Positions 3,513 through 43,316 of a stretch of DNA of 43,316 bases are shown piece by piece. Source of the DNA: a virus. The notes beneath the pieces were generated by a model. That model had not been told where the DNA came from. It saw only the letters and a program-made list of their open reading frames with translations, and ran no database searches. The stretch's first letter is position 1. The number at the start of each line of letters is the position of its first letter. The translations under genes were made by a program, and so were the position numbers. The DNA lies in the IMG/VR virus record IMGVR_UViG_3300047548_000539, positions 1 to 43,316 of that record; one strand, given 5' to 3'.

Positions 3513-3522
3513 ACAACCTAGC

Positions 3523-3941: not shown

Positions 3942-3972
3942 CACACGGCGGCAGAATCGTCGCACCTATGTT

Positions 3973-3988: not shown

Positions 3989-4006
3989 ACAAACATCACG
4001 GATTAT

Positions 4007-4022: not shown

Positions 4023-4078
4023 AAGCGTGGCGTGGCACTATCGCATATTTTTTTCTATGGTTTTGTGTTTGTGGCCTC

Positions 4079-4087
4079 TGGTATGAT
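4079..4087 (+). promoter_or_regulatory. Late-arm promoter (extended -10) before terminase
   Basis: TG-G-TATGAT predicts transcription start near 4094, only about 11 bases before the GTG of the small terminase gene. No clear -35 element lies 17 bases upstream. The three SOS boxes lie 57-160 bases upstream and could modulate it. Confidence 0.55.
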
Positions 4088-4104
4088 TTGTGTGGAGGTG
4101 TGTT

Positions 4105-4611: not shown

Positions 4612-6157
4612 TGGGGTTGCGGCGCTTGCGGTATCGGAAATGCAGGAGAAGTCTAGGGCGCGGGTGTATCGGACTGACCCTGAGGCGTGGATGGCGGATG
4701 TGTTGGGGGTTCGGTTGTGGTCGAAGCAGTCGGAGATTGCTGAGGCGTTTGTGGTGAATCGTCGTTCGGCGGTGAAGTCTGCGAATGGTTGTGGGAAGTC
4801 TGCGTTGGGTGCGGCGTTGGTGTCGTGGTGGTGTTCGGTGTTTCCTGTTGAGGAGTCGTTGGCGATTATTTCTGCACCTACTTTGTCGCAGATTGAGAAG
4901 GTGATTTTTGCTTATTTGAAGAATAATCATGCGTCGGCTAGGGTGTTGGGTTCTCCTTTGCGGGGTGAGTTGTCGGAGGAGTTGACGTGGAAGGTTGCGA
5001 ATCCTGTGACGGGGAAGAATGATTTTTTGGCTTTTGGTAAGCGCCCTGCGGATAAGGATATTGTGTCGTCGTTTCAGGGTACGAGGAAGTTGCGTACTTT
5101 TGTTTTGTTGGATGAGGCGGGTGGTGTGCCGAGGGAGTTGTTTACTGCGGCTGAGGCGGTGACGACTGGTGAGGAGTCGCGCCTGTTGGCGATTGGTAAT
5201 CCTGACCATCGGGGTACAGAGTTTTATAATATTTTTACGCGACCTGAGTTGATGGATGAGTTTTGGTTGGGTACTATTTCGGCGTTTGATTTGCCAACGT
5301 TTACGGGGGAGAGGGTGTATGGTGATGTGCGTCAGGAGGAGTTGTTTCAGAAGTCGTTGACGAGTCGTGACTGGGTTGAGCATAAGAGGCGTGTGTGGGG
5401 TGAGGGTGACGCTAGGTGGTTGTCGAAGGTGTTGGGTGAGTTTCCTGCTGAAACGGATAACACGTTTTTTGGGCAGACGGCGTTGGACCGTGGTGTGGAT
5501 ACGGTGGTTGTGGATGATGCGGCGGTGCGCCCAATTCTGGGTGTGGATGTGGCAAGGTTTGGTGAGGATGAGTCTGTTGTTTATATGAATCGTGGTGGGC
5601 GGGTTCGTTTGGTTGATTCGTGGGGGAAGGTTGATACGGTGGTGTCTGCTAGGCGTGTTCACCAGTTTGCTCAGTCGGTGGATGCTGCGGAGGTGCGGGT
5701 GGATGCGTCGGGTATTGGTGGGGCTGTGTTTGATATGTTGGATTCGTTGGCGGAGTTTGATGATAAACGGTATGTGTTGATTGGTGTTGATGGTGCGGCT
5801 AGGTCACCTGACCCTGCACAGTGGGCGAATGCTCGTGCGTATAATCACGACTCGTTGCGGAAGCAGTTGTTGGATGGGAAGTTGGATATTGATTTTGAGG
5901 ATACGGAGTTGCGTGACCAGTTACTGATGGTGACGTATCGGTTTAACAATCGGGGTGCTGTGCAGATTACTCCGAAGGATGAGTTGCGTGGTGTGATGGG
6001 TGGGTCGCCTGACAGGTTGGATGCGTGTATTTATGCGTGTACGGATTTGTCGTGGTCGTTGCCTGTTGAGGGTGGGTTGTCTGCTGGGGATAGGGTTATG
6101 TTTGACCCTGCTGATGTGTTGGGTGTTGCGGTGAATGATTATGGTATGCCGTGGTAA
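4592..6157 (+). CDS. terL: Terminase large subunit
   Basis: This is the packaging ATPase and nuclease. A Walker A-like SANGCGKS lies at residues 63-70 and a Walker B LLDEAGG at about 172-178. The RNase H-fold nuclease carries acidic residues in GVDVARFG (D319), VRVDASG (D371) and RLDACIYA (D477). The length of 521 residues is normal. The ATG at 4592 overlaps the small-subunit gene by 20 bases. GTG at 4604 (with GAGGG upstream) and ATG at 4640 are alternative starts, since the first 16 residues are not typical. Leucine is almost always TTG, unlike the capsid gene. Confidence 0.95.
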   Translation: MRVLVFSGVAALAVSEMQEKSRARVYRTDPEAWMADVLGVRLWSKQSEIAEAFVVNRRSAVKSANGCGKSALGAALVSWWCSVFPVEESLAIISAPTLSQIEKVIFAYLKNNHASARVLGSPLRGELSEELTWKVANPVTGKNDFLAFGKRPADKDIVSSFQGTRKLRTFVLLDEAGGVPRELFTAAEAVTTGEESRLLAIGNPDHRGTEFYNIFTRPELMDEFWLGTISAFDLPTFTGERVYGDVRQEELFQKSLTSRDWVEHKRRVWGEGDARWLSKVLGEFPAETDNTFFGQTALDRGVDTVVVDDAAVRPILGVDVARFGEDESVVYMNRGGRVRLVDSWGKVDTVVSARRVHQFAQSVDAAEVRVDASGIGGAVFDMLDSLAEFDDKRYVLIGVDGAARSPDPAQWANARAYNHDSLRKQLLDGKLDIDFEDTELRDQLLMVTYRFNNRGAVQITPKDELRGVMGGSPDRLDACIYACTDLSWSLPVEGGLSAGDRVMFDPADVLGVAVNDYGMPW

Positions 6158-6160
6158 AGT
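6152..6160 (+). promoter_or_regulatory. Leaderless promoter (extended -10) before portal
   Basis: TG-G-TAAAGT ends 7 bases before the ATG at 6167, so transcription is predicted to begin at the first base of the start codon. The AGAGG just before the ATG is only 1 base away, too near to act as a ribosome-binding site, which fits leaderless translation. Confidence 0.5.
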
Positions 6161-6166
6161 AGAGGT

Positions 6167-7675
6167 ATGGCTAAAGAGAACCCTGTAGAGGTAGAGCAGA
6201 AACGTCAGATTGAGGCGCTTGAAGGTGCGTTGACGGAGATTAGAAACCGTCACGAAACCACTGCGTTTGAGTTGCAGGAACGTATGGTGGAACTTGACCG
6301 TATTATGGGTGGTCAGGAAAACTGGATTCCGTTGTTGTCGTATGGGGATGAAGGTCCTTCGATTGAACAGTTGGTGACACGGGCGAAGCAGATTCGTGTT
6401 GCGGTGACGTTGAATCCGCATGTGAAGCGTGGTGCAAAGTTGCGTTCGTCTTATGTGTGGTCTGACCAGATTGATTATTCTGGTATTCCTGGTATGGGTG
6501 AACCTGCTGGTCGTGGGCAGGCGAATGTTGGTGCGCGTGTTGATGACCCGATTAATCAACGGTATGTGTTTAGTGCGTTGGCGCGTGAGGAACGTGAAAT
6601 GTCGCTTTACACTGACGGTGGTTTTATTCTTATTGGTGATGAAACAGATAAAACGTTGCGCCCTATGCCGATTACACAGATTAGTGGAATGTACACGAAC
6701 GATGAAGACCCGTCTGAGGTGTGGGCGTATCGTCGCCTGTGGTACACGGAGGGTGGTTTGAAACCGAATGTGGAATGGATTTTTACTGACTTGTTTAAAT
6801 CGAAGACGACATCGGAGATTGTTTATAACGGTGTCACTGAACCTGTGAATCGTCGCAAAACAATTATTGATGGTTGGGTGAACACGCAACCTGGTTGGGC
6901 GTTGGGTTTCCCTGATGCTGGTTGTATTGTGGAGTGGGCAAGGATTTATTCTGAGTTCATCAAGTCGGGTAAGTTGATGACGGATGCGATGGCTCGTATT
7001 TGGGCTGTGGCGAAAGCGCAGTCGTCAACGGGTGCTGCGGCTGTTGCAACTAAACTTGGTGGCGGTACAGGGTTTGGTAATGTTGCGGTTGGTAATGAAC
7101 TTGCACCGTTGGCTACTGCTGGTAAGGCTTATGATTTTGATGCGGGTCGCGCACTGATTTCGATTGTGGCGACTGGTATTGAGGTGTCGGTTATTCATTT
7201 GACTTCTGACCCTGGCGCGTCTGGTTCGTCGTATGGTTCGGCTGCGACTTTGGATTTGCCGACACGGTTGGCGGTTGAGGCTCGCCGCCGTTGGCATGAA
7301 CAGTATGAGGAGAGGGTGTTGCGTTGGTTGGGTGCGCGTAATCCTCGCGCAAAGTTCCCGCCGATTGTGGATGGTGCAGAGTTGTATCGTAAGACGCAGG
7401 CTGTTGTGTTGAAGTGGCAGACTGGTCTTTACACTCCTGAGCAGGTGAAGAATGAGTTGCAGTTGTTGATGGGTGACCCGATGCCGTCTGATATTCCTGA
7501 TGGTGTGTTGATTCCCAACAACGAGTATTCGGCGCAACGTGCAGACATTGATATGGATGTTGCGGCAATGGATGATTCAATGCCTACTGTTGCGTCACCT
7601 GACCAGGGGCAAGACAACGGCACTGGTTCGTTGGATGCTTTGGGTATGGACTTGAGGGATGACACTATCTCGTAA
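6167..7675 (+). CDS. Portal protein
   Basis: This is a 502-residue portal that forms the dodecameric DNA gate at one capsid vertex and docks the terminase. Evidence is its length, its place between terL and the protease gene, an N-terminal helical segment, and the stretch around residues 60-110 (VTLNPHVKRGAKLRSSYVW) typical of actinophage portals. The C-terminal 40 residues are acidic and probably disordered. It starts at ATG 6167, 9 bases after the terL stop. Confidence 0.88.
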   Translation: MAKENPVEVEQKRQIEALEGALTEIRNRHETTAFELQERMVELDRIMGGQENWIPLLSYGDEGPSIEQLVTRAKQIRVAVTLNPHVKRGAKLRSSYVWSDQIDYSGIPGMGEPAGRGQANVGARVDDPINQRYVFSALAREEREMSLYTDGGFILIGDETDKTLRPMPITQISGMYTNDEDPSEVWAYRRLWYTEGGLKPNVEWIFTDLFKSKTTSEIVYNGVTEPVNRRKTIIDGWVNTQPGWALGFPDAGCIVEWARIYSEFIKSGKLMTDAMARIWAVAKAQSSTGAAAVATKLGGGTGFGNVAVGNELAPLATAGKAYDFDAGRALISIVATGIEVSVIHLTSDPGASGSSYGSAATLDLPTRLAVEARRRWHEQYEERVLRWLGARNPRAKFPPIVDGAELYRKTQAVVLKWQTGLYTPEQVKNELQLLMGDPMPSDIPDGVLIPNNEYSAQRADIDMDVAAMDDSMPTVASPDQGQDNGTGSLDALGMDLRDDTIS

Positions 7676-7691
7676 ATGTTATCCCATATTG

Positions 7692-7700
7692 TGATAACAT
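7692..7700 (+). promoter_or_regulatory. Leaderless promoter (extended -10) before protease
   Basis: TG-A-TAACAT ends 7 bases before position 7708, the A of the ATG. No Shine-Dalgarno sequence is present. Transcription and translation of the protease gene probably start at the same base. Confidence 0.5.
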
Positions 7701-7707
7701 TATGTAG

Positions 7708-8619
7708 ATGAAACTTTTAAATGAAGCGTCTAGTTCTACGCTCACGCGACACGGTAAGCGTTGGCGTGGTGTCCTTGCTGTACCTGGTCAAGGTTCTTCA
7801 GGTTTTTATTCTGAAGAAGTGTTGCGCGAGTTTGGTCCTGCCGCGTTAGCGCCTGGTGCTAAAGCGTTCATTGACCATGACACGCAACGTTCACCGAAAG
7901 ACATGATTGGTGTTTACCCTGACGGTGCTGTGTGGGATGACGAACTTGGTGCGTTGGTTGGTGAGTTGGAAGTGTTCCCTCACTGGCAAGAGTTTGTTGA
8001 AGCCGTTGGACCTCACGCTGGTTTGTCTATTTACATGATGGGTGAAACAGATGCTGACGGTAATGTGACTGCACTCATCCCTGACCGTATGAACGGGGTT
8101 GACCTTGTTTCATACCCTGGTTTGGTTGGGTCTGGGTTGGTTGAAAAATTGTACGAGTCGGCTAAGGCTGCACTTGCTACTGAGGGTTCTGACATGGATG
8201 TTCAGGATGCCAATACCGTTAATACGGAAGGAATGGATATGGAAAAGGAAGAACTCCTTACCATCCTTGAAGGGTTTAAGGCTGAAATCACTGCTGCAGT
8301 GATTGAGTCGGTTAAGCCTGTTGAGGAAGAAGTTTCTGCCGAAGAAGAAACCACAGAACTCGCTGACATGGCGGCGGTTGCTGAGGTTGCTGTTGAGGCG
8401 GGTATTCCTGCTGAACTTCGTGCGGAGATTTACGAAGCCGCTAAGAGCATGACGCACGATGAGGCGCTTGCACTTGTTGAGGCTCGTAAGAACACGGTGG
8501 ATGCAATCCGCAAAGCCGTGTCTGAAAACGCAAAGGTTGAGGCTGCCGCCCCTGCTGGTCGCGTTGTTGAAGCGGGAACGGCTCGCTTTGACCTCACTCA
8601 GATTGCAAAGGTTAAGTAA
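7708..8619 (+). CDS. Capsid maturation protease fused to scaffold
   Basis: Residues 1-150 resemble actinophage prohead proteases, with GSSGFYSEEVLREFGP, FIDHD, LSIYM and VDLVSYPG segments. These are candidates for the Ser/His catalytic core (H57 region, S107). Residues 178-303 are acidic, Ala/Glu-rich and helical, as expected of a scaffold that guides capsid assembly and is then digested. The family logic is that of HK97-type heads. A nested start at 8239 could release the scaffold alone. It lies between portal and decoration genes. Confidence 0.85.
   Translation: MKLLNEASSSTLTRHGKRWRGVLAVPGQGSSGFYSEEVLREFGPAALAPGAKAFIDHDTQRSPKDMIGVYPDGAVWDDELGALVGELEVFPHWQEFVEAVGPHAGLSIYMMGETDADGNVTALIPDRMNGVDLVSYPGLVGSGLVEKLYESAKAALATEGSDMDVQDANTVNTEGMDMEKEELLTILEGFKAEITAAVIESVKPVEEEVSAEEETTELADMAAVAEVAVEAGIPAELRAEIYEAAKSMTHDEALALVEARKNTVDAIRKAVSENAKVEAAAPAGRVVEAGTARFDLTQIAKVK
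8239..8619 (+). CDS. Nested in-frame start for separate scaffold, 126 aa
   Basis: Inside the protease gene, GGAAGGA (8226-8232) lies exactly 6 bases before the in-frame ATG at 8239, at the boundary between the protease and scaffold parts. The host gene itself has no ribosome-binding site. Internal initiation would make many free scaffold copies per protease, as in phage lambda C/Nu3. This is inferred, not proven. Confidence 0.5.
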   Translation: MEKEELLTILEGFKAEITAAVIESVKPVEEEVSAEEETTELADMAAVAEVAVEAGIPAELRAEIYEAAKSMTHDEALALVEARKNTVDAIRKAVSENAKVEAAAPAGRVVEAGTARFDLTQIAKVK

Positions 8620-8996
8620 TGGCTCTTAATGAAATTTACCGCGATGGCGAGTCCATCTCGTACAAGGTCAACTCTGCAGTTGAGTCGGGAATGTTTGTTG
8701 TTCTCGGTGGAACTGCTGGTGCGACTGGCGCTGCCGCCACAGGTGTCTGGGGTGTTGCAGAAACTGACGCTAAACTTGGTGAAGATGGCAACTACTACGC
8801 CACCATCCGCCACGTTGGTGTTTTCACTGGCACAACATCGTCTGCTGTTGCCCCTGGTACAGCACTGTACCTTGCTTCGGCTGCAACATACGGTACAGCC
8901 CTGACCACAACGGCAACCTCCAACTACTTTGTTGGATACGCTATCAACACAAAGGGTGCTGTCGCAGGCGAAGCCCTTGTACGAGTCAACAACTAA
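8619..8996 (+). CDS. Head decoration / stabilisation protein (DUF2190-like)
   Basis: This 125-residue beta-rich protein has alternating Gly/Ala/Val and the G-V-F-T-G and A-P-G-T-A-L-Y-L-A pattern of DUF2190-type capsid-associated proteins. These bind the outside of the shell as trimers or at quasi-threefold positions. The ATG overlaps the preceding TAA, with AAGG 7 bases upstream. The gene directly precedes the major capsid gene, as usual. Codon use shifts here towards C-ending codons. Confidence 0.75.
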   Translation: MALNEIYRDGESISYKVNSAVESGMFVVLGGTAGATGAAATGVWGVAETDAKLGEDGNYYATIRHVGVFTGTTSSAVAPGTALYLASAATYGTALTTTATSNYFVGYAINTKGAVAGEALVRVNN

Positions 8997-9005
8997 GGAA
9001 TGATG

Positions 9006-29902: not shown

Positions 29903-30215
29903 CAGCAACCTCCTTTACTTCTGCACCCATAATGCGTGACAACATTTTATCCATTGTCACTATTCGGTTGTCTTCACGCAACCCAAAATACCATAGCAAC
30001 GCATTTGTGAATCCTTCTACACTTCCCGATTTCACTAACGCATAGTCACACAAGAATGGCGGTGGTTCGGTGCAGATTACTTTATCGTCACCAGGTTCAG
30101 CCTGTTTCGGTGTTACTTTGTGAGGGTAACCTGTTGCTTGTTTAGCGGAAACAATTGTTTCACGGTAAACATTCCAGTCACTCCACGGGTAAAAGTTTAG
30201 TTGCATGGCATTCAC
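29802..30215 (-). CDS. Hypothetical protein, 137 aa, with overprinted tail
   Basis: The N-terminal 95 residues look globular, with aromatic and Pro-rich segments (FYPWSDW, EPPPFLCDY). The last 33 residues are polar, low-complexity and encoded in the stretch shared with the resolvase start. The start may be ATG 30215 or 30206; neither has a good ribosome-binding site. The function is unknown; the neighbours are recombination genes. Confidence 0.7.
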   Translation of the reverse strand: MNAMQLNFYPWSDWNVYRETIVSAKQATGYPHKVTPKQAEPGDDKVICTEPPPFLCDYALVKSGSVEGFTNALLWYFGLREDNRIVTMDKMLSRIMGAEVKEVADGDSDERYVNPKPETDNQPRPRKTDGDSGSGLW

Positions 30216-30258
30216 AGGGGCAAGGTTGGTAGATGCAGTCGGTGTGGTGTGCTGTCAT
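30178..30258 (-). CDS. Possible 26-aa Cys-rich peptide
   Basis: ATG at 30258 reads 26 codons with C-P-C-E-C-H near residue 13, similar to C-I-C-E-C-H at the end of the 30860-30991 product. It overlaps the start of the 29802-30215 gene by 38 bases and fills the gap after the FmdB-like gene. No ribosome-binding site is evident. Confidence 0.35.
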   Translation of the reverse strand: MTAHHTDCIYQPCPCECHATKLLPVE

Positions 30259-30287
30259 ACACCAACCGCTGAGGGTTGTGCCTTTGC

Positions 30288-30455
30288 TCACAGGTGACCC
30301 CAACCGCCACCTTTAAACGTGACTGCGGGTGCGGAAAAAACTTTACGCATACCCTCTTTACATAGTTTGCAGGTAATGTTTGGTTTTTCATTCACCCCGT
30401 GTTCGACTGTGTGAATCATGTGACATTCAGGGCATTTGTAATCGTAGAGAGCCAT
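30288..30455 (-). CDS. FmdB-family zinc-ribbon protein, 55 aa
   Basis: M-A-L-Y-D-Y-K-C-P-E-C at the start, CKLC near residue 29, and R-K-V-F-S-A-P-A-V-T-F-K-G-G-G near the end match the FmdB zinc-ribbon family closely. These are putative regulatory or nucleic-acid-binding proteins common in actinobacteria and their phages. ATG at 30455 overlaps the preceding TGA. The biochemical role of the family is not settled. Confidence 0.85.
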   Translation of the reverse strand: MALYDYKCPECHMIHTVEHGVNEKPNITCKLCKEGMRKVFSAPAVTFKGGGWGHL

Positions 30456-30661: not shown

Positions 30662-30867
30662 CAGTTCTCTCCCTTGATAAGTGCGATGTTGATACGGGTT
30701 TCCTCGCACATTTCACAGGGTCCATCATCATAGCCCGTATCTTTACTTACTTCTTCCCAATTACATTCGTCAATTCTGGCTTCGAGTAGTGCGATGATGC
30801 GGTTACGTTCACGAACAGCACCCAACTCCATCGCCTCTTGCAACTGCTCAATCTCAACACTAGGCAT
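30661..30867 (-). CDS. Tandem paralogue A, 68 aa, with CEMC
   Basis: ATG at 30867 lies 6 bases after AAGGAGG, so the longer frame to 30912 is rejected. The protein has an N-terminal helix with R-E-R-N-R-I-I-A-L-L-E-A-R, a CEMC pair near residue 53, and the terminal A-L-I-K-G-E-N. The final 30 bases of this gene recur at the end of the 30455-30661 gene. The function is unknown. Confidence 0.72.
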   Translation of the reverse strand: MPSVEIEQLQEAMELGAVRERNRIIALLEARIDECNWEEVSKDTGYDDGPCEMCEETRINIALIKGEN

Positions 30868-30991
30868 TGTTGTCCTCCTTGTGACATTCACAGATGCAGT
30901 AATCAACTGCACCTTCTACCAACTTTGAATACCAAACCGACGGGCATTCACCGCAATGGCGTTTACCCACGCACCACCCCAACGGGTACAT
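30860..30991 (-). CDS. Cys-rich microprotein, 43 aa
   Basis: ATG at 30991 overlaps the preceding TAA (TAATG) and the stop overlaps the next start by 8 bases. Cysteines at residues 7, 13, 16, 32, 34 and 36, plus a His in C-E-C-H, suggest two metal-binding knuckles. AAGGAGG of the next gene lies inside it. No family was recognised. Confidence 0.6.
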   Translation of the reverse strand: MYPLGWCVGKRHCGECPSVWYSKLVEGAVDYCICECHKEDNNA

Positions 30992-33712: not shown

Positions 33713-33713
33713 G

Positions 33714-33786
33714 AGCCACCTGTCAGAATCGAACTGACGACATTCTGTTTACAAGACAGACACTCTACCAACTGAGTTAAGGCGGC
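33714..33786 (-). tRNA. tRNA-Thr (anticodon UGU)
   Basis: The 73-base sequence folds into a full cloverleaf. It has a 7-bp acceptor stem GCCGCCT/AGGTGGC with one G-T pair, a D arm ACTC/GAGT, an anticodon stem TCTGT/ACAGA around CTTGTAA (anticodon TGT), a 5-base variable loop, and a T arm GTCAG-TTCGATT-CTGAC. CCA is not encoded. It reads ACA, a codon frequent in the fibre and tail-tip genes. Confidence 0.93.
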
Positions 33787-35840: not shown

Positions 35841-36198
35841 TGTTTTCCTCCTTACTTTCATCGTCAGAGATTATCCCCAACAGTTTCTTGAACTTTTCTA
35901 CTTCATCGTTAGTGATTGGATTATCATTGTAACCGTCACCACCGACATCAAACGTTGAATCGGTTTCCCCATCAACAAATCCTTCACCATCATCCCGCCC
36001 TACATGGTGATGAAGTTTCACCAAAGACTCTACCACAACTTCCAACAAATCCTCAACACGAAACTGTGGGTCATCATCATCAAGGTCACTAATCTTTTCA
36101 TCAATATAATCAACCAAGTTTAGTAACGCAATTTTCATATTCAATTCAGGGGCAAGCACAACCAACCCTCTAATCATTTTCATCGGGTCGTCAATCAC
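35833..36198 (-). CDS. Acidic hypothetical protein, 121 aa
   Basis: The protein is strongly acidic, with an Asp run near residue 40 and a C-terminal Asp/Glu/Asn-rich tail. The first 60 residues are helical. It overlaps whiB by 4 bases and the erf gene by 8. It has no recognised family. It could be a DNA mimic or a recombination accessory factor. Confidence 0.7.
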   Translation of the reverse strand: MIDDPMKMIRGLVVLAPELNMKIALLNLVDYIDEKISDLDDDDPQFRVEDLLEVVVESLVKLHHHVGRDDGEGFVDGETDSTFDVGGDGYNDNPITNDEVEKFKKLLGIISDDESKEENNG

Positions 36199-36512
36199 TG
36201 CTTCTTCTCCTTACCGTTACGAAACTTTACCCCACCCCACACACCGTGTGACTGTTTCGACTGTTTCGCATAAACAAAACACGCCTCAACAACAGGACAA
36301 CCAGCACACATCATCACCGCTTCCACAGCAGACGGTTCAGGGAACGGTTCTTCATCTGCCGCATCGTTACTGTAATCAGTCCACGGCGACGGTGACACAC
36401 CTAAACAGTTACCGCCAAACTCCTCCAACTCATCCTGCAAATTCTTGTAAGCATCCGACTCGTCAGGGTTCATCACCCAAGCAGAAAACAAACCTTCATC
36501 ATTTTTACCCAT
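36195..36512 (-). CDS. whiB: WhiB-family Fe-S transcription factor
   Basis: This is a 105-residue protein. Four cysteines (C36, C69, C72, C78) in the pattern C-x32-CxxC-x5-C bind an iron-sulphur cluster, and G-V-W-G-G (90-94) is the WhiB signature. A basic tail (K-F-R-N-G-K-E-K-K) follows, as in DNA-binding members. WhiB proteins are confined to actinobacteria and their phages and act with the host sigma factor, so it may redirect host transcription. It probably has a near-leaderless mRNA. Confidence 0.92.
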   Translation of the reverse strand: MGKNDEGLFSAWVMNPDESDAYKNLQDELEEFGGNCLGVSPSPWTDYSNDAADEEPFPEPSAVEAVMMCAGCPVVEACFVYAKQSKQSHGVWGGVKFRNGKEKKQ

Positions 36513-36523
36513 ACTGTAAACGT

Positions 36524-36529
36524 ACCCTA
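36524..36529 (-). promoter_or_regulatory. Candidate near-leaderless promoter of whiB
   Basis: The minus strand reads TAGGGT, predicting a transcription start near 36517, 5 bases before the ATG. It lies at the end of the helicase gene. The extended TG is absent. Confidence 0.35.
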
Positions 36530-37906
36530 TCTTTCTGTATTCTTCAACATTGACAAACGCATTTGCAACTCTTTACCCAACAATGTTTCCGCTTGCGGGT
36601 CATCCAAAGTGTTACGCGCCATAATTTTGTAAACAATAACCCGCCTAGTTTGACCTGTCCTGTTCAAACGACCAACCATTTGCTGATTCAAAATCGGGTT
36701 ATCGGACTGTGACAACTCCACCAACACACGACACACACGCTGCAACCCGTCAGTACCTTCACTAATGGCAGCCTGTGTTGCCACAATAACCCGCAACTTG
36801 CCGTCAATAAAATCTTGTTTAGCCTGTTCCCGTTCCTGCTGCTTCTTATCACCAGTCCACGCAAACCCACCAACACGGTTCGCAACAACACGCGCAAACT
36901 TTGCCGAATCGGTGGCAACCACAACCTGTTCACCAACAAGGTCGCCCAGCAAACCTTCCAACGCATCCAGTTTTGATGACTTACAATCATCAGCAAAACT
37001 AATTTCTTCCGTGTCAGGGGCAACATATGTTTCACCCAAAGTTAGTTGCCGCAACCTCACCCGTTGAGTGATGGGCAGTTCAGCAACCATCGGGTTACTA
37101 TCCAACCACGCCACCCCCTCATTTTCCATCTGCGAATAGTATGACCGTTGCCGTGGCGACAAATCCACATAGACAGGCACAACCTCTGGCTCATCAGTGG
37201 CAGTGTTACGCAAATTAATGTAACACGGAACACTTGCCGCCAACTCGCCCACATTCTTTTCACCAACAATGCGGGCATTGTTTTCCGCAAACCAGTCATA
37301 CTCTGTCGCACACCAGTTACGAACCCAACGATGATACGACCTGTCAGCAAACATTCCAGGACTGTCGTGGTCAGGGTAAAGGATGCGAAGAATCGCCCAC
37401 GCCCCCTCAAATGATGAACCAAACCAAGTAGCGGATTGGGCAATCGTCAAATCAGCGTTCACTTTACGGGCAACATTGAACCCTTTACTTTTACGGTTCT
37501 GTAACGAATGGCATTCGTCGTGAATCATCACATCAAACACACAATCTGACCAGTCACGCAACCTAAAAAATTCTCGCCCAACAAAATACCAGCCAGCAAC
37601 CCCCCACTGTAACGCTTCAAGGTTAGCCTTGCCAAACTTTGTTTTGTTGTCCACTTTTTTGAACTGTATTGTTCCGTCTGTTTGCCCAAACAAAGTATCG
37701 AACCAACCATAGTAGGTGTGGAGTGGTGCGGAAACTACAACCACACCCATTGGTGCGTATCGTAGCCCCGCTTCCACAGCCATAAGTGTTTTACCTGTAC
37801 CCAAATCGGATGCTTGTAACACGCCGCCGCTTGGTTCGTTCACCATTCTTTCAATGGCTGCTTCTTGTTCAGGTGTGGGTGTAAGCCTACCCACTAATCG
37901 TTCCAC
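36527..37906 (-). CDS. SNF2-like superfamily 2 DNA helicase
   Basis: This 459-residue ATPase has the Walker A D-L-G-T-G-K-T (34-40), DECH (130-133), S-A-T-W (158-161), and motif VI Q-Q-M-V-G-R-L-N-R-T-G-Q in the C-terminal lobe. This is the SNF2/RapA-like layout for ATP-driven DNA translocation in repair, recombination or fork remodelling. GTG at 37906 overlaps the 33-residue Cys gene by 13 bases. Confidence 0.9.
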   Translation of the reverse strand: MERLVGRLTPTPEQEAAIERMVNEPSGGVLQASDLGTGKTLMAVEAGLRYAPMGVVVVSAPLHTYYGWFDTLFGQTDGTIQFKKVDNKTKFGKANLEALQWGVAGWYFVGREFFRLRDWSDCVFDVMIHDECHSLQNRKSKGFNVARKVNADLTIAQSATWFGSSFEGAWAILRILYPDHDSPGMFADRSYHRWVRNWCATEYDWFAENNARIVGEKNVGELAASVPCYINLRNTATDEPEVVPVYVDLSPRQRSYYSQMENEGVAWLDSNPMVAELPITQRVRLRQLTLGETYVAPDTEEISFADDCKSSKLDALEGLLGDLVGEQVVVATDSAKFARVVANRVGGFAWTGDKKQQEREQAKQDFIDGKLRVIVATQAAISEGTDGLQRVCRVLVELSQSDNPILNQQMVGRLNRTGQTRRVIVYKIMARNTLDDPQAETLLGKELQMRLSMLKNTER

Positions 37907-37995
37907 GCTTGGTTAATGTCAGGAAATAACTGTTTCATTTGCGTTTCCCAACACGGCATACAAACCTGCTTGTCGTTGTGTTCACAACTTCTCAT
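37894..37995 (-). CDS. CxxC microprotein, 33 aa
   Basis: ATG at 37995 overlaps the preceding TGA (TGATG). The peptide has C4 and a CMPC pair (residues 12-15) with H6, a plausible single zinc site, followed by an amphipathic helix. It overlaps the helicase start by 13 bases, so it may couple the helicase to upstream translation. Confidence 0.6.
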   Translation of the reverse strand: MRSCEHNDKQVCMPCWETQMKQLFPDINQAWND

Positions 37996-38261
37996 CACTT
38001 CACCTCATCCGCATAGTTTGTTTCACAATCAGGGCATCCCCAGTAGCGAGTGTAATCGCCGCTGCCGCCAACACAAGTTGCTTCAATCTTGCCATTCCAA
38101 CCGCACGAATGATAACCATTCACAAAGTCACAGTTGTCATTACATTCGTGACCGTCAGGTGCGTAATCCAATTCCGCTTCACAAGTCGGAGTAATCCTCT
38201 CCGCCCACTCAACATCACTGCCACCTGAATACGCATTCTTCCAACCATCATAACCAATCAT
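37995..38261 (-). CDS. Cys-rich zinc-binding-like protein, 88 aa
   Basis: Eight cysteines occur, including C-N-D-N-C, S-C-G-W and C-P-D-C near the end, suggesting two zinc ribbons. It overlaps both neighbours by single bases (TAATG and TGATG). The order resembles that of the next upstream gene. The function is unknown. Confidence 0.7.
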   Translation of the reverse strand: MIGYDGWKNAYSGGSDVEWAERITPTCEAELDYAPDGHECNDNCDFVNGYHSCGWNGKIEATCVGGSGDYTRYWGCPDCETNYADEVK

Positions 38262-38437
38262 TAGTTACTCCCTTCATATCCGTCAGCCCCACAAGTAGGG
38301 CATTCAACATACGCCGACCAGCGCACACCGTTACCTTCACACTGAACAATCAAATCACCAACAAAATCGCACGACCCACAATCAAACCCGATAGTGTCCT
38401 GCCACACAACATCATTAGCCCACTCTGTCCAACCCAT
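38261..38437 (-). CDS. Zinc-ribbon microprotein, 58 aa
   Basis: ATG at 38437 overlaps the preceding TAA. CGSC (near residue 20) and CPTCG (near residue 46) are spaced as in a rubredoxin-like or zinc-ribbon fold, with one more Cys at 33. It is chained to the next gene by TAATG. Confidence 0.65.
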   Translation of the reverse strand: MGWTEWANDVVWQDTIGFDCGSCDFVGDLIVQCEGNGVRWSAYVECPTCGADGYEGSN

Positions 38438-38643
38438 TAGTGTTCCCCTTTCATCATTTCACTTTCAACAATAACCAGCCACAGCACAGCCAAAATACAT
38501 ATAGCAGCAACATACCCTAAACCACCGACAGCAAACCCAAGCCACGCCATAGAACCATAACCACCGTTACTGAACCAGACAGCACCCAACCAGCCGCACA
38601 TAAACACAGCGAAACTGTGGAGAATAATCGCAGCAACTTTCAT
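38437..38643 (-). CDS. Two-helix membrane protein, 68 aa
   Basis: Hydrophobic segments at about residues 4-25 and 33-60 are joined by a short Gly/Ser loop, with a charged C-terminus. ATG at 38643 overlaps the TGA of the upstream membrane protein. A pair of small two-helix proteins so far from the lysis cassette suggests an early envelope function such as superinfection exclusion; this is a guess. Confidence 0.7.
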   Translation of the reverse strand: MKVAAIILHSFAVFMCGWLGAVWFSNGGYGSMAWLGFAVGGLGYVAAICILAVLWLVIVESEMMKGEH

Positions 38644-38816
38644 CACGATAGGGTATCCACCAACAACACGGCTGTTGAAACAACCAAACCAACAGTAATC
38701 AGATACACATACCGCATAGCCGACTCGGTGTAGTCAGGATGTTTCCGCCAATCAACGGCAACAAGAATCCACGAAACAACCCAAGTCAAAATAAACACAA
38801 ACCATACACCAATCAC
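38643..38816 (-). CDS. Two-helix membrane protein, 57 aa
   Basis: GTG at 38816 lies 7 bases after AGGAGG and overlaps the preceding TGA (GTGA). Residues 2-21 and 37-54 are hydrophobic, and a short polar segment (D-W-R-K-H-P-D-Y-T-E) joins them. It is a neighbour and likely partner of the 38437-38643 protein. Confidence 0.65.
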   Translation of the reverse strand: MIGVWFVFILTWVVSWILVAVDWRKHPDYTESAMRYVYLITVGLVVSTAVLLVDTLS

Positions 38817-39151
38817 AACACAACCTCCTTCGTTTCACACCACAACCCGTTATCAAGTTGTAGCACCATCACCGACTTACCTTTACTGAAATGTGTCACA
38901 CACCACACCAAGTTATCAAACCCAGCATTGTCACGCAAATACTTCAACACCAACAACTGTTGTGCGTGATGTGACAACTCGTTACCGTAATGAAGGGAAG
39001 CCCCAACCTTACCTTCCTCCTGCCGCGCATACACACTTTCAGGAATGTCGAAAGTTTTTGTTGGTGTGTAATCCTCCAACTGAACACCAGCCCCAACATT
39101 CCACACCAACTCACCTGTGGAATAGGGTACACCGTTACTGTCCAATAGCAT
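38813..39151 (-). CDS. Hypothetical protein, 112 aa
   Basis: ATG at 39151 is preferred to a TTG one codon upstream. The protein is a mixed alpha/beta domain with a central H-H-A-Q-Q-L-L-V-L-K-Y-L helix and several beta strands. No catalytic motif was recognised. It overlaps the preceding gene by 17 bases. Confidence 0.7.
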   Translation of the reverse strand: MLLDSNGVPYSTGELVWNVGAGVQLEDYTPTKTFDIPESVYARQEEGKVGASLHYGNELSHHAQQLLVLKYLRDNAGFDNLVWCVTHFSKGKSVMVLQLDNGLWCETKEVVL

Positions 39152-39662
39152 CAACGATTACCTGATACACGGCAAAGTTGTTTGCGGATGTTGTACGGTC
39201 AAGCAACTCCCGAATCGGGTCGCTGTCAGCCCCACCAATAATGTCAAACCCTGTCACAACATCATCAGTGTAAACAACTTCACAGAACAACTGCCCATAC
39301 ACACGCTCACCCAAATAGTCCACATAGTTTACAGTGAACGCTTCAACACCATTCCAAGTAACCATTTCTGATTCAGGCAAACCACCAATAATGCCGCCAA
39401 TAGTCAGAATGTTTTGAAGTGTGTTGTGGTCTTTCGACCCAATCGCCCGCTTCAAGGTAGCCTTCTTAACCCCCATAGCGTAAGCAATCCGCACCTCGTT
39501 ATCACGAATAGCCTGTAACTGTGACAACCGTTGCGCTAACTCCTCCCGCAACTGTCGTTCCAAAGTATCCCTAGCAATACGGTAATCGTCACTTGCTTTA
39601 CGAACCTTATTCACTGCTGTTCGCTGCTCAATAGTCAGCGATGAATCCGCGTTAGTTCCCAT
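39135..39662 (-). CDS. Coiled-coil plus helix-turn-helix protein, about 175 aa
   Basis: Residues 10-50 form a charged coiled coil. Residues 50-75 (Q-A-I-R-D-N-E-V-R-I-A-Y-A-M-G-V-K-K-A-T-L) resemble a helix-turn-helix, and the C-terminal 90 residues are a beta-rich domain. It could be a transcription regulator or an anti-defence sensor. ATG at 39662 has GGGAG 5 bases upstream. An ATG at 39674 is an alternative. Confidence 0.7.
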   Translation of the reverse strand: MGTNADSSLTIEQRTAVNKVRKASDDYRIARDTLERQLREELAQRLSQLQAIRDNEVRIAYAMGVKKATLKRAIGSKDHNTLQNILTIGGIIGGLPESEMVTWNGVEAFTVNYVDYLGERVYGQLFCEVVYTDDVVTGFDIIGGADSDPIRELLDRTTSANNFAVYQVIVDAIGQ

Positions 39663-39828
39663 AAACTCTCCCATTCTCTCGGATTATGCCGCCACCAGCA
39701 CCACGCAATCTTACCCGCCCGATACCGTGTCGTTCACAAATTGTTCGATAATATTTTTCTGCTTCTTCTATGTCGGTAAACGAAACTTGTTTCTCAACAC
39801 CGTCAATATGAAACTCTACCAGATACAT
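39652..39828 (-). CDS. Hypothetical protein, 58 aa
   Basis: ATG at 39828 overlaps the preceding TAA. The sequence has a beta-strand start (Y-L-V-E-F-H-I-D-G), an acidic helix, and a Gly/Arg-rich C-terminal part (R-L-R-G-A-G-G-G-I-I-R). The end overlaps the next gene by about 11 bases. The function is unknown. Confidence 0.65.
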   Translation of the reverse strand: MYLVEFHIDGVEKQVSFTDIEEAEKYYRTICERHGIGRVRLRGAGGGIIRENGRVYGN

Positions 39829-39995
39829 TACTCTACATCATCCACTTCCGCATAATCAAATGACCGTAGCACACCCATATCGTATTTCATATTCAACACA
39901 ATCGAAACATTACCGTCAGATTCCTCTGTCAAGATAGCGTCTGGTGCGAACGAACGAACCTCCCGCATAAGCAACTCAATTGAAACTTCACTCAT
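39828..39995 (-). CDS. Hypothetical acidic protein, 55 aa
   Basis: The start is taken at ATG 39995, adjacent to a second ATG at 39998 and after AAGG, because a longer frame would cover the neighbouring gene. The protein is acidic with an amphipathic N-terminal helix and beta strands. It overlaps the upstream stop by 8 bases. No family was recognised. Confidence 0.6.
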   Translation of the reverse strand: MSEVSIELLMREVRSFAPDAILTEESDGNVSIVLNMKYDMGVLRSFDYAEVDDVE

Positions 39996-40167
39996 CATCC
40001 TCACCTTCCTCATACACTTCATAAATATCCATACCAGAAACGCCGTCATCCGACCATTCATCTAACCCCATAGATTCCGCAATCTGCCGCGCTTCATCCG
40101 CAGATTCCGCTTCAATCTCAACAGTGTATTCGTGATACACCGTACCTCTCGCAACATAGTTACCCAT
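39988..40167 (-). CDS. Very acidic microprotein, 59 aa
   Basis: I count about 19 acidic and 2 basic residues. The N-terminal half looks like one beta-hairpin-helix unit (T-V-E-I-E-A-E-S-A-D-E-A-R-Q-I-A), common in small DUF domains. The C-terminal E-E-G-E-D-D-E is unstructured. ATG at 40167 overlaps the preceding gene by 8 bases. It is a candidate DNA mimic. Confidence 0.65.
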   Translation of the reverse strand: MGNYVARGTVYHEYTVEIEAESADEARQIAESMGLDEWSDDGVSGMDIYEVYEEGEDDE

Positions 40168-40378
40168 TCACATAATCCTTTCTGTCCAAACGCCACGCCA
40201 AATCAGCCCGCAGCAAAACCATTTCCGCTTCCGACAACCGCACCCAATCAACCTCGTCAGGCACAAAAGTTAGCGCATTATCCCGCATAAGCGAACCAAT
40301 AAACGCCATTGTTCCTTCATCATCAACCGCCCACCTATTAGTAGTGTGGTCAAACTGTACGACATAATGCGTAATCAT
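40160..40378 (-). CDS. Hypothetical protein, 72 aa
   Basis: This is an acidic alpha/beta protein with aromatic residues in the first strand (H-Y-V-V-Q-F-D-H). The Met start at 40378 overlaps the preceding TGA by 4 bases (ATGA). The function is unknown; it sits in a run of acidic small proteins. Confidence 0.7.
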   Translation of the reverse strand: MITHYVVQFDHTTNRWAVDDEGTMAFIGSLMRDNALTFVPDEVDWVRLSEAEMVLLRADLAWRLDRKDYVNG

Positions 40379-40659
40379 CCAGCCGCCCCGATTCTCTTAT
40401 CAAACTGTGCGCTAATCTCGTCACGCACCATATCATTATCAACATTGTCGTATCCGCGCAAGTTGCCCATAACCGCCGCAAAAACTTCACGCGCCACATC
40501 ATCAGTAACATCACCGTAGTAATCGTCACCGTCAGCAAAATCACGCACATCATCATAAGTCCAATACTCCACACCAATCACATCATCAGGCTTCAACCAA
40601 CCCGATTCCATATCTTGTGTGAACTTGTCCACCCATTCTTTCGCCGTCATAACAAACAT
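40375..40659 (-). CDS. Very acidic protein, 94 aa
   Basis: By hand count it has about 23 acidic and 9 basic residues, concentrated in Y-D-D-V-R-D-F-A-D-G-D-D-Y-Y-G-D-V-T-D-D. Flanking segments are helical. A DNA-mimic or anti-restriction role is possible but there is no family match. It starts at ATG 40659, overlapping the preceding TAA. Confidence 0.7.
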   Translation of the reverse strand: MFVMTAKEWVDKFTQDMESGWLKPDDVIGVEYWTYDDVRDFADGDDYYGDVTDDVAREVFAAVMGNLRGYDNVDNDMVRDEISAQFDKRIGAAG

Positions 40660-40847
40660 TACTGAACCTCCTTCACATCAACATAACTTGAATCCAAATC
40701 GGCAACAATATCCCGCACATCATCAAGGAACACATCCTTAACCATATCCACCAAAGCCGCCCGTTCCCACTCACCACCGTCAGCGTAAGTGTCAAGGTCA
40801 TACTCAAACTCAATAACCATTTTCACTGAACCAAACTTGTCACCCAT
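40659..40847 (-). CDS. Acidic microprotein, 62 aa
   Basis: ATG at 40847 overlaps the preceding TAA, with GGAGG 7 bases upstream. The protein has a beta start and an Asp-rich helical second half (net charge about -11 by hand count). It ends in K-E-V-Q because the next gene's ribosome-binding site is encoded there. The function is unknown. Confidence 0.68.
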   Translation of the reverse strand: MGDKFGSVKMVIEFEYDLDTYADGGEWERAALVDMVKDVFLDDVRDIVADLDSSYVDVKEVQ

Positions 40848-41035
40848 TACTGAACCTCCTCTAACTTGTATTCATCCATAAACCGTAAAACAAACTGGTA
40901 TGCTTCCATAGCACCACGCGCATACTGGTAATCAAACCCGTCACCTTCAACATCACAATCCAGCAACTCTTGTTCCCACAACGATTCGTGCCGCAACAAA
41001 AACTCCCTCAACTCTTGTTCACTGTACCGAAACAT
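40847..41035 (-). CDS. Acidic helical microprotein, 62 aa
   Basis: This is a mostly helical protein of the same length as the next gene product and with a matching E-E-V-Q end. The net charge is about -10 by hand count. It starts at ATG 41035, overlapping a TAA. No family was recognised. Confidence 0.68.
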   Translation of the reverse strand: MFRYSEQELREFLLRHESLWEQELLDCDVEGDGFDYQYARGAMEAYQFVLRFMDEYKLEEVQ

Positions 41036-41241
41036 TACACAACCCCCAATCGTTCACGCAAAACCGACAACCCTAACCGATACAGTTTGCCGTTATCATC
41101 ACCGTCAAATTGTTCCCATTCGCAATCATCAACATTCCACACATCATCACCGTTGAAAACCATTTCCGCCATATCCTCGTCAATATGTAATGAGTTAGTG
41201 TCCTCATTCCACACCACAATAAAACGAACTTCCTTACCCAT
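41035..41241 (-). CDS. Acidic beta-rich protein, 68 aa
   Basis: ATG at 41241 lies 6 bases after GGGGG and overlaps a TAA. The sequence alternates beta strands with Asp-rich loops (N-G-D-D-V-W-N-V-D-D), net charge about -11. The function is unknown. Confidence 0.68.
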   Translation of the reverse strand: MGKEVRFIVVWNEDTNSLHIDEDMAEMVFNGDDVWNVDDCEWEQFDGDDNGKLYRLGLSVLRERLGVV

Positions 41242-41336
41242 TAGTTACCCCCTTCATCTACAAACTTCTCATAACATTCATAACAAAAATCATTATCATA
41301 AATCGGTTTCACAACCTCACACTTCCAACACTCCAT
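41241..41336 (-). CDS. Zinc-ribbon microprotein, 31 aa
   Basis: CWKC (residues 3-6) and CYEC (near 18-21) form a minimal zinc ribbon in only 31 residues. ATG at 41336 is 8 bases after GGGAGG; an ATG at 41342 is too near it. The end E-G-G-N is the translated ribosome-binding site of the next gene. Confidence 0.65.
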   Translation of the reverse strand: MECWKCEVVKPIYDNDFCYECYEKFVDEGGN

Positions 41337-41341
41337 AACCA

Positions 41342-41458
41342 TTACCTCCCTATTCTCTGAACAAATCCGCCCAGTGGCGGCAGCGATACGCCACCCGTCA
41401 CACGCGGCAACACCATAGCCCGCGTATTCACCGCCACCACCAGACGAAACCTAACCAA
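41342..41458 (-). CDS. Possible 38-aa basic peptide
   Basis: A TTG at 41458 just after the clamp stop reads 38 codons to a TAA that overlaps the ATG at 41342. The peptide is basic and Val/Gly-rich. A rare start codon and no clear ribosome-binding site make it doubtful. Otherwise this 120-base gap holds nothing recognisable. Confidence 0.3.
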   Translation of the reverse strand: MVRFRLVVAVNTRAMVLPRVTGGVSLPPLGGFVQRIGR

Positions 41459-41460
41459 CC

Positions 41461-42090
41461 TTACTTCACTGCCGAAGGCTGAAACAACACACAAAACAAT
41501 TCTGGTTGCCCCAAATCAAAACGCACAGCACCGTCACGCTTGCCTTCACTAGACACGCCACGCACCATACGCCACACTGACGGTTGTTTAGCGGGTGTCG
41601 TGAACTTACTATTCGGATTAGCGAACTTGACAATATCCGCCAACCTACGCATATCCAAACTAATATCATTCACCAGCGTATCCGCCGCCCGCCATTCACG
41701 AACCAACTGCCCTACACGCGGATACTGTCCACGAATCAGTGAACCCGTCACCTTACCCGCATAAGTTTCAAACGACACTTCACTACTATCAGTATCGAAA
41801 CTAATGGTCACCGTCACGCCACCTTCAATAGCCTTATTGCCCGCCGCAAAATTGGTAAACAAATCCATAGGGATAGTCACGCTAGTATCATCCCCCAAAT
41901 CACTCACCAACCCGCTATTGTGAAGGGCATACACGATACGGTAACGGTCAGTAACAACCCATTCAGTAGCACCGTCACCAACATAACGAACATTCACCCC
42001 GTTCAGTGCGGGATAATCCTTACCTAGTTTCGTAATCGCCGCCCACGAAGATACTCCCCGCACAAAATCCATATTCACTTCAACAAACAT
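41461..42090 (-). CDS. Probable DNA sliding clamp (beta-clamp-like), 209 aa
   Basis: V-V-T-D-R-Y-R-I-V-Y near residue 45, G-Q-Y-P-R-V-G near 123, and a C-terminal V-L-F-Q-P-S-A-V resemble conserved points of bacterial DnaN (T-D-x-x-R, G-x-Y-P-x and the last strand with M/L-P). At 209 residues it is shorter than DnaN (about 370), as in some actinophage clamps. It would tether polymerase and other factors to DNA. ATG at 42090 has GGGGG 6 bases upstream. Confidence 0.6.
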   Translation of the reverse strand: MFVEVNMDFVRGVSSWAAITKLGKDYPALNGVNVRYVGDGATEWVVTDRYRIVYALHNSGLVSDLGDDTSVTIPMDLFTNFAAGNKAIEGGVTVTISFDTDSSEVSFETYAGKVTGSLIRGQYPRVGQLVREWRAADTLVNDISLDMRRLADIVKFANPNSKFTTPAKQPSVWRMVRGVSSEGKRDGAVRFDLGQPELFCVLFQPSAVK

Positions 42091-42209
42091 TAGTTACCCC
42101 CAATCCACTTCAACAAAACATTCTCACGGAAACTATCCACACAATCGGCACACAACCCGTTAGTGTTTGATTCGTAAACCGTACCCAAACAATTCGCACA
42201 ATCATCCAT
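42090..42209 (-). CDS. Zinc-ribbon microprotein, 39 aa
   Basis: CANC (residues 4-7) and CADC (near 20-23) form a minimal zinc ribbon followed by one helix. ATG at 42209 is 7 bases after GGGGG. The stop overlaps the clamp start, so it is translationally coupled to the clamp. Confidence 0.65.
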   Translation of the reverse strand: MDDCANCLGTVYESNTNGLCADCVDSFRENVLLKWIGGN

Positions 42210-42221
42210 AATCATTCCCCC

Positions 42222-42308
42222 TTACCCTAGTTTCGTGGCACTTACAGACAACCCGTAAGCCCCGTCATAATCAACATACACAACAACATAATCATTGTCA
42301 AGTAACAT
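42222..42308 (-). CDS. Beta-rich microprotein, 28 aa
   Basis: ATG at 42308 overlaps a TAA, with GGGGGG upstream. The 28 residues alternate as a beta hairpin (D-Y-V-V-V-Y-V-D-Y-D-G). Chained stop/start signals support translation. The function is unknown. Confidence 0.55.
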   Translation of the reverse strand: MLLDNDYVVVYVDYDGAYGLSVSATKLG

Positions 42309-42583
42309 TACAATTCCCCCCTAATCTTATTGTAAACATTCAACAAATCATCATTAGCATTATCCGCTAACCATTCCCCAATAAACCCTGTCAGTGTTTC
42401 GCATTCCTCATAAGTGAAAAACAAAACCGTACCATTATCGTTCATTATTCCCCCCCGTTCCCATTCGCCGCAATCCTCACACTTCCAATCCGTAACAGTG
42501 TTACTCCAAAACAATTCGTCACTGTTACACAACACACAACGGTTAGTCCATTCGTTACAACATTCACACACAACCATAGCCAT
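42308..42583 (-). CDS. Zinc-ribbon protein paralogous to the 658-801 product, 91 aa
   Basis: The first 50 residues carry CECC, CVLC and CEDC clusters in the same order and context as the 47-residue product at 658-801. The remaining 40 residues add a helical domain. ATG at 42583 is 7 bases after GGGGGG; an upstream in-frame ATG is disfavoured. It is probably a nucleic-acid- or protein-binding zinc protein. Confidence 0.7.
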   Translation of the reverse strand: MAMVVCECCNEWTNRCVLCNSDELFWSNTVTDWKCEDCGEWERGGIMNDNGTVLFFTYEECETLTGFIGEWLADNANDDLLNVYNKIRGEL

Positions 42584-42585
42584 AA

Positions 42586-42702
42586 CTATTCCCCCCATTC
42601 TGTTTCACTAGAACCACAAAACACGCACCTAACAAACCCGCCCGCAACAACAACAGTGAACCCACCCTTCACCCTAGTTTCAAAACACTTACACTTCACC
42701 AT
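42586..42702 (-). CDS. Cys-rich microprotein, 38 aa
   Basis: CKC near residue 4 and CVFC near residue 27 form a possible zinc site, with a Gly/Val-rich beta hairpin between. ATG at 42702 lies 4 bases after GGGGG. The longer frame to 42795 would cover the upstream gene. The function is unknown. Confidence 0.6.
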   Translation of the reverse strand: MVKCKCFETRVKGGFTVVVAGGFVRCVFCGSSETEWGE

Positions 42703-42715
42703 TCCGCCCCCTAAC

Positions 42716-42859
42716 CTATTTCGGATTCGGAATAATGCGCGGCACAACCCCCGCATTATCACAACCCGCAAACCAACAATCGCCGCTAGGCACAATCACT
42801 ACTTCATCAGTAACCCGCGCCCCCGTATCCATATGTTCCGTACAAACCCTAACAATCAT
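42716..42859 (-). CDS. Hypothetical microprotein, 47 aa
   Basis: ATG at 42859 follows GGGGG by 4 bases. The sequence has three cysteines, a beta-rich middle (V-T-D-E-V-V-I-V-P-S-G), and a Pro-rich end. A 13-base gap separates it from the next start. The function is unknown. Confidence 0.55.
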   Translation of the reverse strand: MIVRVCTEHMDTGARVTDEVVIVPSGDCWFAGCDNAGVVPRIIPNPK

Positions 42860-42867
42860 TATTCCCC

Positions 42868-43005
42868 CTAATCCTGCCCGCAACGCGAACAAACAACATC
42901 CTTATCCATAACTAGCCGCATACGCGCCCGATTCACCCGCAACACAACACAACAACCATAACAAACAACCCGATACCCGCCCGCCAGTGATTCAATCGCA
43001 TACAC
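42868..43005 (-). CDS. Zinc-ribbon microprotein, 45 aa
   Basis: GTG at 43005 overlaps a TAG (TAGTG). CYGCC near residue 15 and CSRC near residue 39 flank a basic helix (R-V-N-R-A-R-M-R), a likely nucleic-acid-binding zinc module. The start codon is uncertain. Confidence 0.5.
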   Translation of the reverse strand: MYAIESLAGGYRVVCYGCCVVLRVNRARMRLVMDKDVVCSRCGQD

Positions 43006-43187
43006 TATGCCGCCGCCAATTCATCTAACGCGGCGCGTACCCGTTCCCAATAAAACCGTTCCGCCCCCGTAGTTTCGTCAATACGGTACTCAATACTCAC
43101 CATAGCCCGCGTGTACCCTACCGATTCGTAATAACTAGCGGCGCGTACCCGTTCATCCCGCGCTAACCAATACTCCACACTACCCAT
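43005..43187 (-). CDS. Hypothetical protein, 60 aa
   Basis: This is a helical protein rich in Arg, Glu and Tyr (W-L-A-R-D-E-R-V-R-A-A-S-Y-Y). ATG at 43187 follows AAGGGG and AAGG. It lies 5 bases after the stop of the junction-spanning gene. No family was recognised. Confidence 0.68.
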   Translation of the reverse strand: MGSVEYWLARDERVRAASYYESVGYTRAMVSIEYRIDETTGAERFYWERVRAALDELAAA

Positions 43188-43191
43188 AACC

Positions 43192-43316
43192 TTACCCCTT
43201 CACTCCCGTACCATAAATATTCGGCACACTCTTACCAACATAACCGACACTCACGGGCGCATAACAATACGCCAATTCCCCCAAACACGGCACACAACAA
43301 ATATCGTACTCAATCG
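43192..43316 (-). CDS. Cys-rich small protein, C-terminal part (gene crosses the window ends)
   Basis: The frame is open from the end of the window (first whole codon at 43314) to TAA at 43192-43194. It carries a CCVPC cluster and a further Cys near the end of that segment. Joined to the 1-128 part at the 19-base overlap it makes a 77-residue zinc-ribbon-like protein. Its interruption by the window edge is best explained by circularity. Confidence 0.7.
   Translation of the reverse strand, partial: IEYDICCVPCLGELAYCYAPVSVGYVGKSVPNIYGTGVKG
43298..43316. repeat. Terminal direct repeat, copy 2 (contig overlap)
   Basis: This matches bases 1-19 except at 43303. See the copy at the window start. 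Removing one copy would give a genome of about 43,297 bases. Confidence 0.75.

Follow-up and report, generated by a model that had tools for sequence, protein, structure and literature searches.

The leftward arm of the phage genome in IMG/VR record IMGVR_UViG_3300047548_000539 (43,316 nucleotides, analysed at its full length and called the window here) is densely occupied by genes for microproteins with paired CxC or CxxC motifs (knuckles). Arm members that have relatives are under purifying selection, and their cysteines are held more tightly than their other residues. The chances seem about even that the arm holds an early array of accessory genes, changing in content and encoding small zinc-ribbon adaptors.

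The two ends of the window overlap, positions 43298-43316 being a repeat of positions 1-19 (19 bp, one mismatch), so that 37894-43316 and 1-3463, which an earlier note made from the sequence had listed as two regions, form a single leftward block of ~8.9 kb through the contig ends; the record looks like an assembled, circularly closed phage genome. Two related contigs, L001 and L002, with helicases 86% and 79% identical, cross the same junction unbroken. The arm reads leftward from 3463 to 1 and on from 43316 to 37894, with about 40 tiny genes followed by the helicase, which together with ERF, SSB and Prim-Pol makes up the replication genes located downstream of the array on the same strand. 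Its small genes mostly overlap or abut, with strong ribosome sites for most and stop/start overlaps for many, and a single polycistron is plausible from this arrangement.

Small genes were called by dynamic programming weighing length, start codon and ribosome site; three calls were excluded as spurious, and 2363-2488 was kept as doubtful. At least two non-overlapping CxC/CxxC knuckles are present in 11 of the 40 called small genes of the arm (10 without 2363-2488), nine of these 11 being shorter than 70 amino acids (aa), and four more arm genes have a single knuckle with additional Cys or His. Outside the arm there are three Cys-rich genes (30178-30303, 30288-30455 and 30860-30991), giving a grand total of 18; the figure of about 18 in the earlier note is thus right under a loose definition (11+4+3), the strict arm count being 11 or 10, and its quoted examples (CWKC/CYEC in 31 aa, CANC/CADC in 39 aa, CDCC/CAFC/CGDC in 47 aa) all exist. 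The number of two-knuckle genes expected is 0.18 in composition-matched random genes (maximum 2 in 1000) and 1.15 with residues shuffled within genes (maximum 5 in 2000). The arm has a GT-rich coding strand (GC skew near 0.5), which favours TGT, and the Cys content (0.040 observed vs 0.031 expected from codon-position composition) is only mildly raised; composition therefore accounts for the cysteines, but not for their pairing.

The density is also unusual among phages, as the earlier note had supposed. The same caller was applied to 16 other phages, 18 stretches in all, most of them related through the helicase or primase, with SPO1 and TM4 added; this panel, chosen by relatedness and convenience and not at random, gave 21 two-knuckle genes among 341 small genes, or 1.26 per 10 kb, at least one of which (in TM4) looks spurious; the window differs from this panel with a Fisher p of 1e-4. 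L001 and L002 each have a full counterpart of the arm, with 6 and 8 two-knuckle genes respectively, although 5 is the fairer count for L001 because one of its six (A30) looks like a membrane protein. The densities in the three related arms, beginning with the window, are 12.4, 8.4 and 10.2 per 10 kb.

Pooled over seven Cys-rich ortholog pairs, the proportion of nonsynonymous differences (pN) is 0.34 and that of synonymous differences (pS) 0.70, an order reversed in 0 of 1000 bootstraps; synonymous sites are near saturation, so that pN/pS and dN/dS (the ratio of the corresponding rates), including the values listed below, are rough. Among alignment columns of the same pairs with Cys in either sequence, 36 of 39 keep it in both, whereas 175 of 371 other columns are identical, and 11 of the 36 conserved cysteines are encoded by differing codons. 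Retention of cysteines amid mainly synonymous changes indicates that these are real proteins with constrained cysteines. Neutral codon evolution, which the earlier note had named as grounds for rejecting its idea, is thus contradicted for the members with relatives.

The Cys-rich genes and the two landmark genes, in the order of the arm and then outside it, are as follows.
3194-3463, minus strand: first gene of the arm, 89 aa, with a C-x2-C-x4-H-x9-C finger at the C-terminus; orthologs in both relatives
2363-2488, minus strand: 41 aa, CRC/CGLC, doubtful (weak Shine-Dalgarno score of 4.0, competing frame); no relative found
1423-1614, minus strand: 63 aa, single CARC knuckle and one further Cys; gene call with a GGGGGTG ribosome site
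802-996, minus strand: 64 aa, CYGC/CDGC; gene call with weak matches to the DnaG zinc ribbon and phrog_11425
658-801, minus strand: 47 aa, CDCC/CAFC/CGDC; paralog of 42308-42583
140-295, minus strand: 51 aa, CFEC/CGVC, TRASH-like; ortholog L002:6903-7028 with 4/4 Cys kept, weak PF24273/PF24444 matches
1-128 (N-terminal part) and 43192-43316 (C-terminal part), minus strand: 77 aa, CDRC/CCVPC, split by the contig ends; the 19-bp overlap restores one frame
42868-43005, minus strand: 45 aa, CYGCC/CSRC; ortholog L001:3197-3334 with 5/5 Cys kept, dN/dS ~0.15
42586-42702, minus strand: 38 aa, CKC/CVFC; gene call, no clear relative found
42308-42583, minus strand: 91 aa, CECC/CVLC/CEDC domain with an extra C-terminal half; paralog of 658-801
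42090-42209, minus strand: 39 aa, CANC/CADC, adjoining the clamp gene; gene call
41461-42090, minus strand: DNA sliding clamp, landmark (PF02767, 29.7 bits, cutoff 27)
41241-41336, minus strand: 31 aa, CWKC/CYEC; gene call
38261-38437, minus strand: 58 aa, zinc-ribbon-like, CGSC/CPTC; 72% to L001:7269-7445 with 5/5 Cys kept, dN/dS ~0.14
37995-38261, minus strand: 88 aa with 7 Cys, perhaps an elaborated form of ribbon; ortholog L002:9428-9706 with 7/7 Cys kept, dN/dS ~0.13
37894-37995, minus strand: 33 aa, C-x-H-x5-C-x2-C; gene call, no relative found
36527-37906, minus strand: helicase closing the array, landmark (PF00271 Helicase_C)
30860-30991, minus strand: 43 aa, GWC-x5-C-x2-C ... CxCxCH; kept in both relatives, with 6 Cys and the last His invariant
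30288-30455, minus strand: 55 aa, FmdB-type zinc ribbon, MALYDYKCPEC...CKLC; full-length PF09723 match, counterpart in L001
30178-30303, minus strand: 41 aa, GWC ... CxCxCH type; counterpart L001:15188-15295

All four ligands of the finger in 3194-3463 are invariant across the three phages at 33-38% overall identity. The paralogs 658-801 and 42308-42583 are 57% identical over 44 aa and have 7/7 Cys in common; a scan of viral contigs with this pair found no relative. Four cysteines of 38261-38437 can be aligned with those of genes that precede the helicase in L003 and L009. Its neighbour 37995-38261 was considered as a possible duplicate of it, and a Cys-masked comparison gave no relation at E 0.05. 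The sliding-clamp-like protein within the array is small (209 aa) and has counterparts in L001 and L002, and the Cys-rich genes A17 and B16 of the relatives likewise lie at or near the clamp gene.

Profile searches of Pfam, PHROG and PADLOC gave no confident match for any tested Cys gene of the arm, and their weak matches are mostly to assorted zinc-binding domains. The exception among the tested Cys genes is the FmdB-type ribbon outside the arm, which falls just under the curated cutoff of PF09723 (31.3 vs 34.4 bits) and matches the FmdB-like phrog_1076 at E 5.9e-05; other tested members do not match this family. None of the tested Cys genes has a family-level match to defence or anti-defence families in PADLOC, Pfam or PHROGs; one protein matches a Cas12-type stretch in PADLOC (E 0.011), which probably reflects a generic zinc ribbon. 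AlphaFold2 models are mainly beta, with the knuckles at strand ends, the mean confidence scores (pLDDT) being 61.6 for 38261-38437, which is all-beta, and 55.8 for a second protein. The conserved pairs of cysteines would be expected to bind zinc, but such an expectation can fail for single members, since of 14 tested look-alike proteins of Haloferax nine bound zinc and five were zinc-free (PMC11241148).

Arrays of small phage genes, zinc micro-proteins and start-associated repeats have each been described before. Haloferax volcanii has zinc-finger micro-proteins with two C(P)XCG motifs and fewer than 70 aa (PMC11241148, PMC6562870), which the arm proteins resemble in size, in their two Cys knuckles and in being many per genome, and most of the tested Haloferax proteins bind zinc; those, however, are archaeal cellular proteins, whereas the phage members are packed in one gene run. 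Only some arm knuckles read CxxCG, most do not, and no sequence family is shared between the Haloferax proteins and the arm genes beyond a weak TRASH-domain match. The arm, a run of small non-structural genes beside replication genes, also resembles early host-takeover modules such as the terminal-redundancy genes of Bacillus phage SPO1, in which a run of small genes of mostly unassigned function occupies an early-type region; in contrast, the same procedure finds just 2 two-knuckle genes in the first 20 kb of SPO1. In the literature searched, which left most subscription papers outside its coverage, no phage zinc-microprotein array was found, nor any early-arm concentration of such genes with an early-specific GGGGG site.

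The favoured reading, an early array of zinc-ribbon adaptors, would work as follows. The arm would probably be the first region transcribed and be expressed early after infection; the Cys pairs would bind zinc to form zinc-ribbon or treble-clef microdomains; and most members would be small adaptors binding host (or phage) transcription, translation or replication proteins. A fold that is stable in 30-60 residues is cheaply obtained with a two-knuckle ribbon, so that pressure on size and rapid replacement would push genes toward ribbons. The earlier note had envisaged a toolkit for host takeover or anti-defence, or a set of zinc-dependent interaction adaptors: a dense set of small two-knuckle genes in one early-type run is indeed present, with which adaptor and host-takeover roles are compatible, but the anti-defence part is without support, family matches going no further than generic zinc-ribbon similarity.

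Several points weigh against the adaptor array. Orthologs in L001 or L002 were found for just 5 of the arm's 15 Cys-type genes, so that selection is seen for a subset. Both structure models are of low confidence and too weak for naming a fold, and Foldseek gave no significant hit. Early timing is deduced from position. Some members adjoin the helicase and clamp genes and may serve the phage's own replication.

This last point leads to the main rival, which carries an appreciable but clearly lesser probability: that the ribbons are not directed at the host but act as accessory subunits of the proteins with which the phage itself replicates, recombines and transcribes. Proteins of replication and transcription often contain zinc ribbons, and the weak profile matches include proteins of these kinds; the conserved 38261-38437 and 37995-38261 stand beside the helicase, as 42090-42209 does beside the clamp, and similar four-Cys genes precede the helicase in L003 and L009. 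Content that differs among phages with 79-86% identical helicases would, however, be odd for core subunits, and the far end of the arm, nearest the promoter, holds many of the members. It is improbable that the arm is a dedicated anti-defence island: anti-defence genes typically have such a location and such changing content, but the tested Cys genes match no known family, and the one PADLOC hit, to a Cas12-type stretch, probably reflects a generic zinc ribbon. Anti-defence is possible as the use of single members, without specific support.

Also improbable is a role in redox or metal buffering, with CxxC pairs acting as thiol/disulfide centres or forming a zinc sink in the manner of metallothionein. 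Cys pairs do serve as redox motifs, and the five zinc-free proteins among the 14 tested archaeal look-alikes (PMC11241148) would agree with this, but the spacing of ~10-25 residues between knuckles, the conserved non-Cys residues and the lack of a Cys-dense metallothionein pattern fit ribbons better. Very improbable as a general account is that a GT-rich coding strand yields TGT codons as a compositional by-product and that the small frames are noise. The skew of the arm and an overall Cys content in L001 equal to the composition expectation speak for it, but knuckle pairing is ~10-60 fold above expectation, ribosome sites precede most frames, and both purifying selection and the differing codons at conserved cysteines argue otherwise; it is largely refuted for members with relatives and possible for 2363-2488 and a few others without them.

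Gene content differs much between close relatives. Faster turnover of the Cys genes than of other small genes was considered, and the difference in orthologs found in L001 or L002 (5/15 vs 14/25, p 0.20) is not significant. A nucleotide search of the arm against named phages gave no match, protein searches with three Cys genes against named phages gave nothing meaningful, and scans of viral contigs with conserved arm genes recovered only L001 and L002.

A second feature of the arm is the run GGGGG in the ribosome-site window, present before 22 of 43, 15 of 32 and 17 of 33 early genes of the three phages, but before none of the 26 rightward (late) and none of the 13 replication-region genes of the window. 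The runs end 4-9 nucleotides before the start, with one exception at 12, and 22 are so placed in the arm of the window vs 2.1 expected under random placement. These sites are often embedded in the last codons of the preceding gene, as in the following example.
507-523, minus strand: junction GAAGGGGGTAACTAATG, with ribosome site, tail codons (EGGN), stop and next start in one block

In L002, many genes have EGGN or a similar ending, their final codons being supplied by GAAGGGGGTAACTAATG, the ribosome site of the gene that follows; across viral contigs the exact sequence is recurrent only in the L002 phage, with single hits elsewhere at about the estimated chance level. GGGGG is able to pair with CCUCC of 16S ribosomal RNA, with one G-U pair, and may simply be a ribosome-site variant; a regulator-binding site is possible. 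In Cluster K mycobacteriophages, start-associated sequences with the consensus GGGATAGGAGCCC (PMC3203893) similarly repeat a few bases before the starts of unrelated non-structural genes, at the ribosome-site position; unlike GGGATAGGAGCCC, the motif here is GGGGG, in its fullest form GAAGGGGGTAACTAATG, and often lies in the tail codons of the previous gene, whose stop overlaps the next start. It is conceivable, though doubtful, that in this phage group the arm is a dedicated early array of cassettes whose shared junction (GGGGG site, tail codons, TAATG) makes tiny genes interchangeable, with zinc-ribbon microdomains as the preferred part, so that modular, rapidly renewed host-binding adaptors would have a ribosome-site class of their own. 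An early-only GGGGG class could flag such genes in other genomes. Small phage proteins form a large reservoir, still untested, many of them being missed by gene finders, and the defined 18-gene set, with selection evidence for several members and clear boundaries, offers a compact library on zinc ribbons as a possible general building block of phage-host interaction. For comparison, 32 of 94 Waterfoul genes (34%) inhibit growth (PMC9339283).

Ribbons may also be gained or lost as protein tails: the 63-aa protein of the window at 1232-1423 matches phrog_9294/9396, a longer version in a distant relative (L005:6101-6421) matches the same families and ends in a two-knuckle tail, and L011:3524-3832 encodes a similar protein, also with a two-knuckle tail.

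The actinobacterial type of the phage is seen from a terminase 53% identical to that of Clavibacter phage CN1A, a primase 34% identical to those of Microbacterium phages and a WhiB-type protein (PF02467, 36198-36512) encoded immediately after the helicase; no relative turned up when bacterial and archaeal genomes were scanned with the helicase. The coding-strand GC skew of ~0.5 extends on both sides of a divergent region at ~3.5-4.0 kb (1-9000 and 36000-43316) and declines with distance, which suggests an origin or strong divergent transcription there. The non-coding segment 3472-3614, ahead of the first leftward gene, shares 79% identity with L002 and is a candidate early promoter or leader; promoter and terminator scans showed no clear excess over shuffles. 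A single tRNA-Thr gene (TGT) lies at 33713-33786 in the replication region. Just before the rightward operon are three copies of the palindrome TCGAACAAATGTTCGA, one of them mismatched (3926-3941, 3973-3988 and 4007-4022), and L001 and L002 carry similar palindromes at the equivalent place. The palindrome resembles the actinobacterial LexA (SOS) box, and may tie the rightward genes of the phage to the SOS repressor of the host.

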